64,000 nucleotides of DNA from a virus: positions 1 through 64,000 of IMG/VR virus record IMGVR_UViG_3300042402_005830; one strand, written 5' to 3'. Shown here piece by piece: positions 4,780 through 16,338 of the stretch. A model generated the notes under the pieces. The model was not told the origin of the DNA, searched no databases, and was given only the letters and a program-made list of their open reading frames with translations. The position numbers and the translations under genes are program-made. Each line of letters begins with the position of its first letter. Positions within the stretch are counted from its first letter, which is position 1.

Positions 4780-5340
4780 TCAACGGATCACCTCCGTTTG
4801 ATTAAGATATTCCAAAAGAAGTGTTCTTACCTGATCATTACACAATCCAAGTAAATAATCAGATGAGAGTACAAAGTTTTGTAACCCCCACACTTCATCA
4901 CCCATCTGCATGTCGTCAATTGCTACCCAATTTTCAACTTCAGGATGTTCTTTTAACCACTTCTTGATCTCCAAAACCCGTATCTGATTATGTCCAAAAC
5001 CCGGTCTAAAAGAATATTCATCAGGAACTTCATTCCGATCTATAAATGGTGTAAATCCGATGGGTTTTTTTATGATCCCGTGATGGGTGTAATATTCACC
5101 CAACTCTTCAAGAGTTGCCCAAGTTCTCCAATCTGAAGAGATTACAATTTCACAATCGGTTTCTCTGATAATTTCATTCAAACACTGAACACAATTTTTG
5201 TCGAAATCATCAAACCGATTAAGGATGGGTACATCCCATATCGTTCCTTCTCTTTTAAGGGTTCCTTCTTTCTCAAAACGAGTACCCCATTGAGATTCCA
5301 AACAAATCACTCCATCGTGATCCATAAAGATTACTTTCAT
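4780..5340 (-). CDS. HAD-superfamily phosphatase (HAD_SAK-like)
   Basis: 186 aa from ATG 5340. HAD motif I is D7-x-D9-G (MDHDGVI), motif II is ISSDWRTW near S68/S69, and motif IV is AIDD at 140-143, so the catalytic set is intact. The short cap, the WRTW and GxTP-like segment and the overall length fit the HAD group linked to RNA-repair (Swiss-army-knife) phosphatases. It is embedded in a tRNA transcript, between tRNA-Leu and tRNA-Ser, with seven bases to tRNA-Ser. A role in tRNA end repair or nucleotide dephosphorylation is inference. Confidence 0.82.
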   Translation of the reverse strand: MKVIFMDHDGVICLESQWGTRFEKEGTLKREGTIWDVPILNRFDDFDKNCVQCLNEIIRETDCEIVISSDWRTWATLEELGEYYTHHGIIKKPIGFTPFIDRNEVPDEYSFRPGFGHNQIRVLEIKKWLKEHPEVENWVAIDDMQMGDEVWGLQNFVLSSDYLLGLCNDQVRTLLLEYLNQTEVIR

Positions 5341-5362
5341 TTTTTATATTATGTTTAATTTG

Positions 5363-5657
5363 TACTCGGAGCGGGAGTCGAACCCGCACGAGCCCTTCGG
5401 CTCATTTGATTTTCTTACCATCTACAGTTTTCACTGCCAACTTACGTTGTTTGTGGTCTGGACTTTCTCTTTACCATATCCATAAGGATTTAGGTACCTT
5501 CCGTCAAGTCTCTACACCTTCCTCATTTCTGAGGCTTGGCTCGGGATTACCATTTTACAGGCTTCCCCGAATTTGAAAGGTTCTACTCTAAGGATTTCTC
5601 CAAAGGCACTCAATTTATCTTAAAGTCAAACATGTCTACCAATTCCATCATCCAAGC
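5363..5657 (-). tRNA. tRNA-Leu(UAA) interrupted by a group I intron
   Basis: Exon 1 (5657-5623) holds acceptor GCTTGGA, the D-arm, anticodon-stem TTTGA and loop bases CTT; exon 2 (5413-5363) begins AAAATCAAA and holds the class II variable arm GAGCC-GAA-GGGCTC, T-loop TTCGACT, acceptor TCCGAGT and discriminator A. Joined, the loop is CTTAAAA with anticodon UAA. The break lies between U34 and A35, the same place as the well-known cyanobacterial/plastid tRNA-Leu group I intron. Transcribed after tRNA-Tyr from the promoter at 5783-5790. Confidence 0.9.
5414..5622 (-). other. Group I intron, 209 nt, no ORF
   Basis: The intron starts after the U of ...GACTT and ends in G (omega-G). An internal guide GAGT pairs with exon ACTT and places a U-G pair at the 5' splice site (P1). 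P7 strands GACTT (in AGAGACTTGACGG) and AAGTC (in GAGAAAGTCC) are present, with the GGTACCTAA and AGATGGTAAG-type joiners expected in the core. It is smaller than typical cyanobacterial copies and encodes no endonuclease. The complete P3-P9 fold was not computed. Confidence 0.85.
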
Positions 5658-5749: not shown

Positions 5750-5761
5750 TCTTTAATCTTA

Positions 5762-10500: not shown

Positions 10501-10530
10501 AATTCCCCACCAATAAGTGGGGAATTTTTT
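10501..10530 (+). terminator. Rho-independent terminator
   Basis: AATTCCCCAC (10501-10510) pairs with GTGGGGAATT (10517-10526), followed by TTTT. It ends the 9856-10452 gene and abuts the convergent CAP gene stop. Confidence 0.85.
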
Positions 10531-11093
10531 CATCTCATATTTACAGTAGAATAAAAGGTATTGTGTTTTTCGCTGTAAAGCGTTGAAATTGAAATATAAA
10601 TCATATCACTTTCCATCAAAGATTCCCAATGAGGTGGGCTATCTTCATATTGATCCAAAAAATAACTTCTATTTTTATCAGTATCAAAAGAACCGCCGGT
10701 TCTTGATGCCACACATTCTGACATTCTTAAGTATCCACATCGAGAAAGTTTATTGGAGAAATATTGAACGGAACCGACATGTGATACCTCATTTTTTTCA
10801 AGTTGCCATGTGTTATGAGGTAAGGTTACACAATTATACATAGTGGAATCATAAACCAAAACATTCAATCCATTTTTAACCCGAACTTTATTTAACATAG
10901 TAAAAAACTCAAAGGAAAGGGAATGAAGCATGGAATCCATATCCATATAACGATAATTCCAAGGAGAACCATCTGGATCATCACAAGGACATAGAACGAA
11001 TTCACCAATGTCTTCGTTTTCCTTCCAACAACGTTTTTGTGCCTGAATTGTTAAACTGAACATGAGTAAGGAAAAGAGAAATGTGTATTTCAT
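10530..11093 (-). CDS. Secreted CAP-domain protein (paralogue 1)
   Basis: 187 aa from ATG 11093. Signal peptide MKYTFLFSLLMFSLTIQAQ, then a Cys-rich spacer and a CAP/SCP domain: LNKVRVKNGL, the first-histidine segment PHNTWQ, SHVG, AEC-like SECVAS, PPHWESLM and a terminal YSTVNMR strand. These match CAP1-CAP4 signatures of cysteine-rich secretory/SCP proteins, whose bacterial members act outside the cell. The two histidines and the glutamate of the CAP cavity are present. Paralogue of the 11592-12167 gene; the tmRNA lies between them. Confidence 0.8.
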   Translation of the reverse strand: MKYTFLFSLLMFSLTIQAQKRCWKENEDIGEFVLCPCDDPDGSPWNYRYMDMDSMLHSLSFEFFTMLNKVRVKNGLNVLVYDSTMYNCVTLPHNTWQLEKNEVSHVGSVQYFSNKLSRCGYLRMSECVASRTGGSFDTDKNRSYFLDQYEDSPPHWESLMESDMIYISISTLYSEKHNTFYSTVNMR

Positions 11094-11106
11094 AACTTAA
11101 GTATAA

Positions 11107-11142
11107 TAAAAAAACCCCATACCGTCAAATAGGTAAGGGGTT
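11107..11142 (-). terminator. Terminator of the tmRNA gene
   Basis: Minus strand: AACCCC TTACC ... GGTA TGGGGTT stem followed by seven Ts, directly after the tmRNA 3' end. Confidence 0.85.
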
Positions 11143-11147
11143 CGAAG

Positions 11148-11538
11148 TGGAGGCGGGGTGACTCGAACACCCGTCCCAAATATCTCAAACAGAGAGTACT
11201 ACACGTTTAGGTCATTATTGGTTCTCAATAATCCGAAATATCTGAATTCTCACACCGTTCAGCCACGGTGGTAACTCTTTAAGAGGAGTCACACCCTTTG
11301 GTTATTAAGAGAACCACCCTTCTGCGGACTTCTGTTCATAGGTTATATGTCCTGACCGACCCGATGGTCACGGAGCCTTAGGCTGCGTAAACCTCTTCAG
11401 ACTGAAGGAGACCAACAGACTGAAGTTTTGCGAAAGTTTCGCCGTTTGTCTTTTGAAACCATAGATTATAGTGATAGATTTCGTCTCACTACGTGCACTC
11501 TGTGCCTGACCATACCGGTCAAATCCAAAAACGCCCCC
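11148..11538 (-). ncRNA. ssrA: tmRNA (ssrA), complete, 391 nt
   Basis: The minus strand starts GGGGGCG and ends CGCCTCC plus discriminator A, the two pairing as a tRNA-like acceptor; the 3' T-arm is GGGTG-TTCGAGT-CACCC. The tag reading frame starts at GGC (11443) in the context CAAACGGCGAA and ends at TAA (11380-11378). It encodes 21 residues, beginning GETFAKLQ and ending SEEVYAA. Hosts of this phylum usually carry tags that begin GEN and end LAA of about 10 residues, so start and end classes match but the length does not. No CCA is encoded. Pseudoknot-like helices follow the tag. Confidence 0.93.
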
Positions 11539-11540
11539 AT

Positions 11541-11565
11541 ATTTTCAAAGAACACCACAAATATA
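11541..11565 (-). promoter_or_regulatory. Promoter plus boxA-like block of the tmRNA
   Basis: Minus strand TATATTTG (11565-11558), TGG, then TGTTCTTTGAAAAT (11554-11541), ending three bases before the mature 5' end. Nearly identical blocks precede tRNA-Ile and tRNA-Tyr. Confidence 0.6.
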
Positions 11566-11591: not shown

Positions 11592-12167
11592 TCACCTTAC
11601 ATTTACCGTGGAATAAAATGTATCCCACTCTTTGTCATATACTACCGATACTGAAATATATTGATATTTAGGGTCTGTTAGAACATCCCAATGTGGTTTA
11701 CTATTTTGGTATTGAATAAAAAACCTTGAAACACCATCTTCATCTTTGGTTGAATTGTATGCCACACACTCGGCAACCATTGATAATCCTACATTTCTTA
11801 GTCTTTCACTGTAAGAAATAGAAGATTTACCATCAACATTGGTACCTTCACCGTGAGAGATACATTTGTTATTCAATTGCCATTGGTTGTGAGGATTGGA
11901 TAAAATCCGTTCCATTTCTTTATCATACGTTAGTCCTCCAAGATTATGTTCTCTCCTCCATTTGTTGAGAGTTTGAACAAACAACTTTTCCATTTCGGTA
12001 CAAACCGAATCGACATTTGATTTAATGGATGGGACGGGTCTAACATCATCACAATCAAAATAGAATTTTTTCATATTTTCATCAAAGAAAAAACATTTTT
12101 CTTCTTGTCCGTATAACCCTGAAAGGATTGTGGTAAGGATAAAAGAAATAAAGAATAATTGTTTCAT
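11592..12167 (-). CDS. Secreted CAP-domain protein (paralogue 2)
   Basis: 191 aa from ATG 12167. Signal peptide MKQLFFISFILTTILSGLYG, then a CAP domain with LNKWRREHNLGGLTYD, PHNQWQ, SHGEG, MVAECVAYN, SKPHWDVL and terminal YSTVNVR. Same motif order, length and ending as paralogue 1, so the pair arose by duplication. The intervening tmRNA separates them, and each has TTATACTT shortly before its ATG. Divergent from the metallopeptidase gene. Confidence 0.8.
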   Translation of the reverse strand: MKQLFFISFILTTILSGLYGQEEKCFFFDENMKKFYFDCDDVRPVPSIKSNVDSVCTEMEKLFVQTLNKWRREHNLGGLTYDKEMERILSNPHNQWQLNNKCISHGEGTNVDGKSSISYSERLRNVGLSMVAECVAYNSTKDEDGVSRFFIQYQNSKPHWDVLTDPKYQYISVSVVYDKEWDTFYSTVNVR

Positions 12168-12221
12168 AGTACAAGTATAACAAATTTTTTTAAATTATGT
12201 TAATTGTTGAAAAATTTTTTA

Positions 12222-12229
12222 TATCTTTG
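12222..12229 (+). promoter_or_regulatory. Host-type -7 element TATCTTTG, four bases from ATG
   Basis: Plus-strand TATCTTTG (TAnnTTTG) ends four bases before ATG 12234; TTG lies about 16 bases upstream. Transcription would start at or next to the A of the start codon. Confidence 0.5.
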
Positions 12230-12233
12230 TATT

Positions 12234-13019
12234 ATGAAGAAAGAAGATTTGGATTTTTTTAAATCACTACTTAGCGTTCCGTCCAATACAGGTCAGGAAG
12301 ATCTAATGATTGATTACTTGTCGGACTATCTCTATAGTAAAGATTATGATTTTTATTTGGACGATATGTCCAACATCTATATCACCAAAGGTAAAACAGA
12401 ATTTTATCCATGTTTTGTGGCTCACTTGGATACGGTTCATCATATGAGTAATATCTTAGTAAAGGAAGAAAAACACCCGAACGATCACGGTGAATATAAA
12501 GATGCTCTAAAAGCATATACTCCTTTTAGTAATCAACCAACAGGTATTGGTGGTGATGATAAGTGTGGAATTTTTGTATGTCTCCAACTACTTGAAAAAT
12601 TGGACAATGTAAAAGTTGCCTTTTTTGTGTCTGAAGAAATTGGTTGTATTGGATCATCCGTGGCTGATGACTTTTTTTTCGAAGATGTTGGATATGTTGT
12701 TCAGTTTGACGCACCATCAAACTTTATGGTGAGTGAATTTTGTTCAGGAGTCCAACTTTTCAAACGAGATTCGGAGTTCTTCGGACGGATTGAACCAGTA
12801 TTGACCGAAACATTCAACCCCAACCATCAACTGCAACGACATCCTTATACCGATGTGAAAGCTTTGAAACAACTATTCCCACATATCAGTATGATTAATC
12901 TATCTTGTGGGTATCATAATTACCACACACCCAACGAATACATCATATTGGAAGAAGTGGAAAATGCGGTGGTTACAGGATTAGAAATCTACGATAAATT
13001 AGGTTGTGAAAGGTTATAA
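12234..13019 (+). CDS. M20-family metallopeptidase (di-zinc aminopeptidase-like)
   Basis: 261 aa; ATG 12234 chosen over an upstream in-frame TTG at 12204 because the promoter lies between them. All metal ligands of the M20/M28 co-catalytic centre are visible: H64-x-D66 (AHLDTVH), D109 in GGDDKCG, catalytic and ligand E134/E135 (SEEIGCIGSS), D159 (FDAPS) and H231 (CGYHNYHTPNEY). The lid domain is short. Order and spacing are close to PepT-like tripeptidases. No signal peptide, so it acts in the cytosol, possibly recycling peptides from the phage-encoded Clp/host ClpP system (inference). Confidence 0.85.
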   Translation: MKKEDLDFFKSLLSVPSNTGQEDLMIDYLSDYLYSKDYDFYLDDMSNIYITKGKTEFYPCFVAHLDTVHHMSNILVKEEKHPNDHGEYKDALKAYTPFSNQPTGIGGDDKCGIFVCLQLLEKLDNVKVAFFVSEEIGCIGSSVADDFFFEDVGYVVQFDAPSNFMVSEFCSGVQLFKRDSEFFGRIEPVLTETFNPNHQLQRHPYTDVKALKQLFPHISMINLSCGYHNYHTPNEYIILEEVENAVVTGLEIYDKLGCERL

Positions 13020-13047: not shown

Positions 13048-15066
13048 TTATCTCTTTTTTCTGAGTGTGACTTTATCCTCTTTCATATATAACTCATACT
13101 TTTTATCAAGTACGATATTTTTTCTCAATACATTTTCAGATATAAAGTCTTCTACTTGTTCTTGAATTGCTCTTTTTAAAGGTCTTGCTCCGAATTCCTC
13201 ATCATATCCGACTTTTCCGATGTGTTGATAAACACTATCATCAAAGTTGATATAATATCCAAGTTCATCCAAACGATCTTTGAGTTGAACAAACTCAATC
13301 TCGATGATTTTGTGAATGTCGGTTTCATTGAGTGAATTGAAAAGAACAATTTCATCTACTCGGTTTAAAAACTCAGGTGAGAAATAATTTTTGACTTCTT
13401 TTTTAAGAATATCCTTTTTAATTTCTTCACTGTTTGCCGCTCGGGATGATGTATTAAAACCAACTCCCGTTCCAAATTCCATCAACTTTTTAACACCGAG
13501 GTTTGAGGTCATAATTATCAAGGTATTCTTGAAGTTGATATGTCTCCCTGTGGAATCTGTGATGAATCCATCATCTAAGATTTGAAGGAGTATGGAGAAA
13601 ATATCTTTGTTGGCCTTTTCAACTTCATCAAAAAGAATGACCGAATATGGTTTGTTTTTAACCTGTTCCGTAAGTTGACCGCCTTCTCCGTATCCGACAT
13701 ACCCAGGAGGTGATCCAATCAATCTTGACAAAGAATGTTTTTCTTGGAATTCACTCATATCAACCCTGATTAAGGAATTTGAATCACCAAACACTTGTTT
13801 TGCTAGTTGTTTTGCAAGGTATGTCTTTCCTACCCCCGTTGATCCAAGGAAAATAAATGAACCAATCGGTCTGTTTGGATCCTTAATACCAAGTCGATTT
13901 CTTCTAATTGCTTTTGAGATTTTTTCAACTGCAGATTCCTGTCCAATTACTTTTTCATTGAGATTCTTTTCCAAATTAATCAAAGCATCTACATCATCCG
14001 CTGACAACTTGGTTACAGGAATTTTGGTAATTGATGCCACAACCTCATAAACCATGTCTTCAGTTATTTCTTTCCTTACCGTATTTTGCTCTTTTTCAAA
14101 CTTGAACTTTTCATCGTCCAATTGTTTTAAGACCTTTTTTTCACGGTCACGAAGATTCGCAGCTTCTTCATATCGTTGTTGTTTGACAACTGCTAGTTTT
14201 GTTTTCTTAATTTCCGCAGCCTCTTCTTTGAGTTTTTCAATGACTTCGGGAAGTTTGGTTGTTACCTGTGCTCGAGCCCCAAGTTCATCTAAAATATCGA
14301 TTGCTTTATCAGGAAATTCTCGATTAGTAATGTATCTATCCGCTAAACGAACACAAGCAGTGATCGCCTCTTCGTGGTAATTAACCTTGTGGAAATCCTC
14401 GTATTTGTCTTTGATATTTTGAAGGATCTGAATTGTTTCTTTTACTGAAGGTGGTTCAACAACAACTTTTTGAAATCTCCTTTCAAGAGCACCATCTTTT
14501 TCGATATTTTGACGATACTCATCCAATGTTGTCGCCCCAATACATTGAATCTCACCACGAGCAAGAGCTGGTTTGAATATGTTAGAAGCGTCCAATGATC
14601 CTGAACTGTTTCCAGCACCAACAATATTGTGGATTTCATCAATAAAGACAATAACCTCTCTCGTTTCTTGAAGTTCTTCAAGGATTACCTTCAATCGTTC
14701 TTCAAATTGACCACGATACTTTGTTCCAGCAACAATCGAAGTCATATCCAACGACACAATTCTTTTGTCACACAAATTACGAGGACAATCACCCTCAAAA
14801 ATCTTTTGAGCTAAACCTTCAACAATTGCGGTTTTACCACAACCTGGTTCGCCAATAATGATTGGATTGTTTTTCTTTCTTCTCGAAAGAATTTGAGCAA
14901 TTCGCAAAATCTCCTCCTCTCTTCCTACAACAGGATCTAATGCTCCTAACTCCGCCAATTTGGACAAATCTCTTGAAAAGTTGTCCAATACAGGTGTTTT
15001 AGAGTTAGGATTTTGTTTTTGTCTTTTTTCCCTTTTTGATTCACCGGGATCCATATCTTCTATCAT
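13048..15066 (-). CDS. ClpC-like double AAA+ unfoldase lacking N-domain
   Basis: 672 aa from ATG 15066. D1: Walker A GEPGCGKT (72-79), Walker B FIDE (141-144). Middle domain with a UVR-like motif QQRYEEAANLRDREKKVL (296-313). D2: Walker A GSTGVGKT (408-415), Walker B VILFDE (476-481), GYVGYGEGG pore loop. A V535-G536-F537 tripeptide lies where Hsp100 proteins carry the ClpP-docking (I/L/V)GF loop. Cellular ClpC is about 810-850 aa; the missing part is the N-terminal repeat domain that binds adaptors such as MecA. It is replaced by a short charged tail (MIEDMDPGESKREKRQ). It probably unfolds proteins for host ClpP. Confidence 0.9.
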   Translation of the reverse strand: MIEDMDPGESKREKRQKQNPNSKTPVLDNFSRDLSKLAELGALDPVVGREEEILRIAQILSRRKKNNPIIIGEPGCGKTAIVEGLAQKIFEGDCPRNLCDKRIVSLDMTSIVAGTKYRGQFEERLKVILEELQETREVIVFIDEIHNIVGAGNSSGSLDASNIFKPALARGEIQCIGATTLDEYRQNIEKDGALERRFQKVVVEPPSVKETIQILQNIKDKYEDFHKVNYHEEAITACVRLADRYITNREFPDKAIDILDELGARAQVTTKLPEVIEKLKEEAAEIKKTKLAVVKQQRYEEAANLRDREKKVLKQLDDEKFKFEKEQNTVRKEITEDMVYEVVASITKIPVTKLSADDVDALINLEKNLNEKVIGQESAVEKISKAIRRNRLGIKDPNRPIGSFIFLGSTGVGKTYLAKQLAKQVFGDSNSLIRVDMSEFQEKHSLSRLIGSPPGYVGYGEGGQLTEQVKNKPYSVILFDEVEKANKDIFSILLQILDDGFITDSTGRHINFKNTLIIMTSNLGVKKLMEFGTGVGFNTSSRAANSEEIKKDILKKEVKNYFSPEFLNRVDEIVLFNSLNETDIHKIIEIEFVQLKDRLDELGYYINFDDSVYQHIGKVGYDEEFGARPLKRAIQEQVEDFISENVLRKNIVLDKKYELYMKEDKVTLRKKR

Positions 15067-15906: not shown

Positions 15907-16338
15907 ATGTTACGCAAAAGATTTAACCTAAACAACCTTTTTTCTGAATTTGATTCATTTTTTGAAGATTTTAACTCACCTCTTATGGTAAGAGGAAAAC
16001 GAGATGTTGAAACAGGTAATGATGAAAATGGTCAATGGACGAAAGAAACATTTACCTCAGAAGATGGATCTTATCAAATGACAACCATCATTCAACATGT
16101 GAATCAAGGATCAAAACAAACACCAAATGAGAAATCAAGTCTCCAAAAACAACTTGATCAAGCGGTGGAAAAACAGGATTTTGAGAAGGCTGCAAAACTC
16201 CGAGACCAAATTAAACAGATTGAATCGAATAAAGAAAAGATTCAAGAAGTTCAAACAAAACTTGATGAATCTATAAAAAAACAGGATTTTGAATCGGCGA
16301 TAAAATATAGGGATGAACTGAAAAAACTTAAATCATGA
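15907..16338 (+). CDS. UVR-motif protein, McsA-like C-terminus
   Basis: 143 aa from ATG 15907. The C-terminal half holds two UVR motifs, LQKQLDQAVEKQDFEKAAKL (79-98, continuing to ~105) and its near-repeat at 115-141 (KLDESIKKQDFESAIKYRDE). UVR motifs pair with each other in UvrB-UvrC and with the ClpC middle domain in McsA. The N-terminal part (NLNNLFSEFDSFFEDF) has no zinc fingers. It is divergent from the ClpC-like gene, which also carries a UVR-like motif, so an adaptor or regulator of that unfoldase is the obvious guess. Confidence 0.75.
   Translation: MLRKRFNLNNLFSEFDSFFEDFNSPLMVRGKRDVETGNDENGQWTKETFTSEDGSYQMTTIIQHVNQGSKQTPNEKSSLQKQLDQAVEKQDFEKAAKLRDQIKQIESNKEKIQEVQTKLDESIKKQDFESAIKYRDELKKLKS

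Follow-up and report, generated by a model that had tools for sequence, protein, structure and literature searches.

The window analyzed here, a stretch of 64,000 nucleotides, belongs to a 75,725-base IMG/VR virus record (IMGVR_UViG_3300042402_005830) that is itself a fragment and encodes a T4-type terminase and a major head protein. The window has a G+C content of 33% and carries, besides a tmRNA gene, 11 further tRNA genes (ARAGORN) and one group I intron (Rfam). No DNA match to the window was found among 50,697 phage records. Flavobacterium phage immuto and Rhodothermus phage RM378 possess a related head protein, yet are without a tmRNA. The following features lie at the tmRNA locus:

11105–11143, minus strand: intrinsic terminator, stem plus T7 (fold of -16.3 kcal/mol, z -4.1)
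11147–11538, minus strand: one-piece tmRNA (ssrA) gene without encoded CCA (ARAGORN and Rfam RF00023)
11378–11443, minus strand: tag reading frame GETFAKLQSVGLLQSEEVYAA with UAA stop and resume codon GGC (Gly) (ARAGORN, sequence reading and conserved tag family)
11447, minus strand: A at position -4 from the resume codon (A in 50 of 50 relative tmRNAs)
11543–11553, minus strand: boxA-like element GTTCTTTGAAA, directly upstream of the mature tmRNA 5' end
11558–11565, minus strand: Bacteroidota-type -7 promoter element TATATTTG (TAnnTTTG), upstream of the tmRNA
12204–13019, plus strand: gene for an M20/M42-like peptidase, oriented toward clpC (convergent); translation likely starts at the ATG at 12234
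13048–15066, minus strand: gene for a ClpC-type AAA+ unfoldase of 672 residues without N domain, 1.5 kb from the tmRNA and on the same strand
15907–16338, plus strand: gene for a small protein that contains two UVR motifs and resembles the C-terminal half of McsA; transcribed divergently from clpC

It was confirmed that the window carries a genuine and complete phage tmRNA gene. The covariance search with the tmRNA model, which had been suggested as a check in the initial annotation, gave a match to RF00023 of 92.8 bits (E 7.8e-35; gathering score 47) that covered all 374 model positions (1–374). The complete ssrA gene with tRNA-like ends, promoter and terminator that had been read from the letters was thus borne out by ARAGORN, the covariance match, the -7 box and the terminator fold. 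ARAGORN also returned exactly the proposed 21-residue tag, which starts with GETFAKLQ and ends with SEEVYAA. The acceptor stem reads GGGGGCG/CGCCUCC and includes a G3:U70 pair; it is accompanied by the discriminator A, a T-loop UUCGA and a normal T-arm. Alanyl-tRNA synthetase requires the G3:U70 pair, which was present in 27 of 27 relative tmRNAs with both ends readable, and the phage tmRNA is expected to be charged with alanine and to tag proteins in vivo. The A at -4 is the equivalent of E. coli A86. With the full-length covariance match, the tRNA-like end containing G3:U70 and the tag frame with its stop codon and -4 A, the gene is a member of RF00023.

The -7 box TAnnTTTG preceded the tmRNA in 39 of 45 distinct relatives, as compared to 7% of random stretches. 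The boxA-like element was likewise found before the tmRNA in most of the relatives listed. It possibly acts in the antitermination or processing of untranslated RNAs. The element GTTCTTTGAAA also occurs upstream of the tRNA-Tyr gene of the window, near position 5750.

Relatives of the window were collected as 80 viral loci with the phage ClpC as bait and as 80 more via the head protein, and a nucleotide profile made from the recovered tmRNAs was used to retrieve the family. From the 50 distinct phage tmRNAs recovered with this profile, 34 different tags were read, each 21–22 residues long, with the consensus G-[EN]-[TV]-[FIL]-x-K-[LM]-x3-G-L-[LIVM]-x3-5-V-x-[AV]-A, from which deviations are rare (e.g., DNTLSKMALLGLIVEEAVVEA). 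The last Ala is invariant, while the penultimate residue is Val in most tags; some, including that of the window, end with Ala-Ala. The tag frame was uninterrupted in 50 of 50 tmRNAs. Per-site differences within the tags were highest at third codon positions (0.49), followed by first (0.34) and second positions (0.19), and pN/pS was 0.54 in the tag frame, whereas the two alternative frames gave 0.90 and 1.37. Thus, the tag peptide, and not the RNA alone, is under selection.

When the second half of the tag was searched as a degenerate pattern, 106 matches were obtained in viral contigs and none in the prokaryotic genomes of GTDB (84,980 species, one genome each). The tag pattern is virus-restricted. 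Its absence from GTDB genomes argues against host contamination, which the initial annotation had named as a possible refutation; with the phage terminase and head genes in the same record, contamination was rejected. The pattern was also not found at the C terminus of long phage reading frames, i.e., the tag is not shared with a phage protein. An internal duplication within the tag of the window (CTTCAGTCTG occurring twice, 18 nt apart; LQSVGL/LQSEEV) was considered as well. It was rejected as a coincidental repeat because relatives read AVGLLRTEEV at the same place.

The phage tag is about twice as long as the usual host tag, as had been noted before: the tmRNA tags of Bacteroidota comprise 9–10 residues of the GENNYALAA type and end with ALAA or AMAA; in this listing, the program mis-called or truncated a few tags. 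The closest cellular relatives of the phage ClpC all belong to this phylum, chiefly to marine Flavobacteriaceae, with 55–60% identity. On this sequence evidence, Bacteroidota are likely the hosts of the phage group. Bacteroidota and phage tmRNAs are both one-piece and share a Bacteroidota-type promoter as well as the unusual resume codon GGC (Gly) followed by E or N. They differ in the tag, which in the phages has 21–22 residues, a conserved middle and the C terminus V-x-[AV]-A, and in that no SmpB is encoded alongside in the phage genome. Since phages and Bacteroidota share the resume codon GGC and the GE/GN start of the tag but differ in tag length and end, the phage tmRNA is most simply viewed as derived from a likely Bacteroidota ancestor by lengthening of the tag and acquisition of a new C terminus.

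The genes for the ClpC-type unfoldase, the UVR protein and the peptidase had escaped the initial annotation. The best matches of the unfoldase were ClpC structures, and it was assigned to PHROG 4871 (‘ATP-dependent protease’). The two AAA+ modules retain both sets of Walker A/B motifs and both pore loops, and a middle domain of the ClpC type is present, as is the VGF loop. No match to Clp_N was found, i.e., the N-terminal adaptor domain is missing. By its sequence, the protein is classed as a ClpC-type unfoldase without N domain. The Walker and pore motifs and the VGF loop, which serves in ClpP docking, were conserved across the phage ClpC proteins. These proteins are 668–702 residues long, as compared to 778–925 for bacterial ClpC, and only about 22 residues precede the first conserved block instead of about 191 in ClpC of Bacteroidota. 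The phage sequences formed a single clade with full support. The phage ClpC has two AAA+ domains, a middle domain and a VGF loop in common with the ClpC/ClpP systems of Bacteroidota and Firmicutes (PDB 6em8, 3j3t), but differs from them by the missing N-terminal adaptor domain and its placement in a clade of its own.

The tmRNA and clpC genes were tightly linked. Where the sequence extends for 6 kb or more downstream of clpC, a tmRNA was found in every case (47 of 47 loci), at a distance of 0.9–6.3 kb and almost always on the same strand. Among the remaining clpC loci (80 in total), 13 shorter ones also carried a tmRNA, and 20 without tmRNA end too early to be judged. Conversely, clpC was present in 46 of 47 contigs selected by the tag; the one contig lacking it is a fragment of 11.9 kb in which the tmRNA lies close to the end. 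The spacing and the genes in between vary among relatives, and the pair persists. Both genes lie within a wider conserved block that contains the terminase region, the M20-like peptidase and the UVR protein. As the linkage was measured inside one related viral group sharing this syntenic block, synteny accounts for a part of it, and common ancestry alone could be the reason for the co-retention of tmRNA and clpC.

The peptidase gene was present at 78 of 80 clpC loci and the UVR protein gene at 55 or more of them. The assignment of the peptidase is based on weak matches to Pfam M20/M42 and NCBIfam peptidase T, all below the curated cut-offs. The UVR motif also occurs in the ClpC middle domain and in McsA, a protein of the ClpC system. 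The match between the UVR protein and McsA was restricted to the UVR segment and remained below the curated cut-off; the N-terminal zinc modules of McsA were not found in the UVR protein. Structure prediction placed helices over the UVR half, with low overall confidence (pLDDT 72, pTM 0.36). Judged from this short motif, the UVR protein is a plausible candidate for a ClpC regulator or adaptor.

Among the contigs with both tmRNA and clpC, 22 are 100 kb or longer; ClpP with intact GMAASMGS and histidine motifs was encoded in 9 of these and was missing from the other 13. It was not found in the window's record, a fragment, and no clear rule relating the tag ending to the presence of ClpP was seen. 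A search for smpB, as proposed in the initial annotation, found no SmpB in the window's record, again a fragment, nor in 48 related-phage IMG/VR contigs; a complete trans-translation system, with SmpB in the same genome, was not observed. Therefore, the host must supply SmpB. With no SmpB encoded in the group, the tmRNAs of phage and host must compete for the host protein. This would suit a tmRNA that serves mainly to titrate host SmpB as a decoy or, as a sensor, to signal the state of the cell, with the tag peptide being of little importance. A relic consisting of the tRNA-like domain alone is known from mycobacteriophage DS6A (PMC4131195). However, the intact tag frame in 50 of 50 tmRNAs, the coding constraint and the retention of the -4 A and the G3:U70 pair speak against this explanation, which is considered very improbable.

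Three huge phages deserve mention here. LR756502 (642 kb) and LR745206 (635 kb), which are unrelated to the clade, encode ClpC, two or three ClpP proteins and SmpB, and a full tmRNA match was found in neither. Either the tmRNA of the host may serve these phages, or their own may be too divergent. LR756511, whose head protein is related to that of the window, carries a tmRNA at 341278–341632 with the ordinary short tag ANPEFAMAA.

Taken together, the existence of a virus-controlled tag-and-degrade pathway that uses host SmpB in a large group of aquatic T4-like phages of Bacteroidota appears somewhat favored by these data. The phage tmRNA would be charged by the host alanyl-tRNA synthetase, delivered by host SmpB and would rescue ribosomes stalled on broken mRNAs during infection, appending the virus-specific tag of 21–22 residues instead of the 9-residue host tag. 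The phage ClpC-type unfoldase would be the main reader of this tag. Because the N-terminal adaptor platform is missing, it probably would take the tag directly in its pore loops or via the adjacent UVR protein. The unfolded protein would then be passed to ClpP, which some members would encode themselves and the others would take from the host. The resulting peptides may be trimmed to amino acids by the neighboring M20-like peptidase. The presumed gain for the phage would lie in releasing ribosomes and reusing amino acids in the late phase of infection, as mRNA breaks down.

Two functions had been suggested in the initial annotation for the long tag. The first, steering of tagged proteins to another protease or adaptor, is favored, and the circumstantial evidence for it is strong: the conserved and virus-specific tag shows coding constraint and is genetically linked to clpC, and ClpP is encoded in some relatives. 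Its recognition by the phage ClpC is the step that we infer. The second, protection against host tag-directed decay, received no specific support, as every tag ends with Ala and that of the window with Ala-Ala, which host ClpXP could still recognize. A stabilizing or masking tag, which frees ribosomes while keeping the products from host proteolysis or sending them elsewhere, would nonetheless fit the replacement of the penultimate Ala by Val in most tags, and changing the last two alanines raises the KM for E. coli ClpXP (PMC7652416). However, the last Ala is invariant, and the tag is linked to a protein-unfolding machine, both of which suggest degradation rather than protection; this explanation is regarded as improbable.

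The same alanines bear on the possibility that the tmRNA merely tops up host rescue, with the tag as an alternative degron for host ClpXP/ClpC and with the phage ClpC serving separate purposes (disaggregation, virion assembly or degradation of specific host proteins). The last two alanines of the ssrA tag are the main determinant for ClpXP in E. coli (PMC7652416), and since the terminal Ala is kept in all phage tags, with Ala-Ala in some, host ClpXP could still act on them. The missing ClpP in 13 of the 22 large contigs and the occurrence of ClpC in huge phages without a detected full tmRNA are also in line with such a division of labor. On the other hand, the tag length was doubled and the host YALAA end was lost; the virus-specific middle K[LM]...GL[LIV] was kept under coding constraint, although ClpXP needs the end only; and clpC was retained beside the tmRNA in almost every member. 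Therefore, a tag directed at the host proteases is considered rather unlikely. A stricter form of the virus-controlled tag-and-degrade pathway is an orthogonal, virus-owned one, with the tag as a selective degron for the phage N-domain-less ClpC (with phage or host ClpP) that is largely ignored by host ClpXP. It has close to an even chance of being correct and, if true, would mean that everything rescued by the viral tmRNA goes to the viral protease.

Phage-borne ssrA genes have been described for the mycobacteriophage Bxz1 group, Bacillus phage G and the OM43 phage Melnitz (PMC4131195, PMC9004378), and about 2.3% of phage genomes carry a tmRNA (PMC9004378). The tmRNA described here has the phage-borne ssrA gene in common with these, but is distinguished by a shared virus-specific long tag on a one-piece tmRNA and the tight linkage to ClpC, peptidase and UVR genes. 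In particular, the Melnitz tmRNA is two-piece and riboswitch-controlled, whereas that of the window clade is one-piece; amino-acid recycling via a phage tmRNA tag was proposed earlier for Melnitz (PMC9004378). Phage Clp components are known separately from phage tmRNAs (PMC7824862). Phage SPO1 also takes over the ClpCP pathway, but it redirects the host ClpC by means of the adaptor-like protein Gp53 (PMC6873191), while the phage group of the window brings its own ClpC. A cellular precedent is Mesoplasma florum, in which a diverged ssrA tag is read by its own Lon as a dedicated pair (Gur and Sauer 2008, as cited in PMC8138137). According to this secondary account, both cases would combine a diverged ssrA tag with one dedicated AAA+ protease; the Mesoplasma pair is cellular, involves Lon since ClpXP is absent, and was established experimentally, whereas the pair proposed here is viral, involves ClpC, and we infer it from genetic linkage.

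Within the open-access literature, as distinct from subscription journals, no description was found of a conserved tag that is specific to viruses and coupled to a ClpC encoded by the virus itself. Phage tmRNAs have long been catalogued, and the conserved virus-specific tag with its linked unfoldase now reduces the purpose of such a tag to a simple test. If true, a matched tag–ClpC pair would constitute a self-contained viral pathway for protein quality control and amino-acid recycling, a viral parallel to the tag–protease switch of Mesoplasma, and a natural orthogonal degron–protease pair for use in Bacteroidota.

Further features of the window were observed. The tmRNA is bracketed by the genes of two similar secreted proteins (10530–11093 and 11592–12167, minus strand). 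The latter protein (11592–12167, minus strand) contains a CAP domain, and to our knowledge CAP domains are rare in phages. At 5362–5657 on the minus strand lies a tRNA-Leu(UAA) gene whose anticodon loop harbors a group I intron about 207 nt long (Rfam Intron_gpI, 5435–5632, 68.3 bits); the tRNA was missed by plain ARAGORN. This site in the anticodon loop of tRNA-Leu(UAA) is the classical cyanobacterial and plastid position. Immediately 3' of the intron-split tRNA, a protein of the HAD_SAK_2 family (the ‘Swiss army knife’ RNA repair family) is encoded at 4780–5340 on the minus strand, which is perhaps a candidate tRNA repair enzyme.
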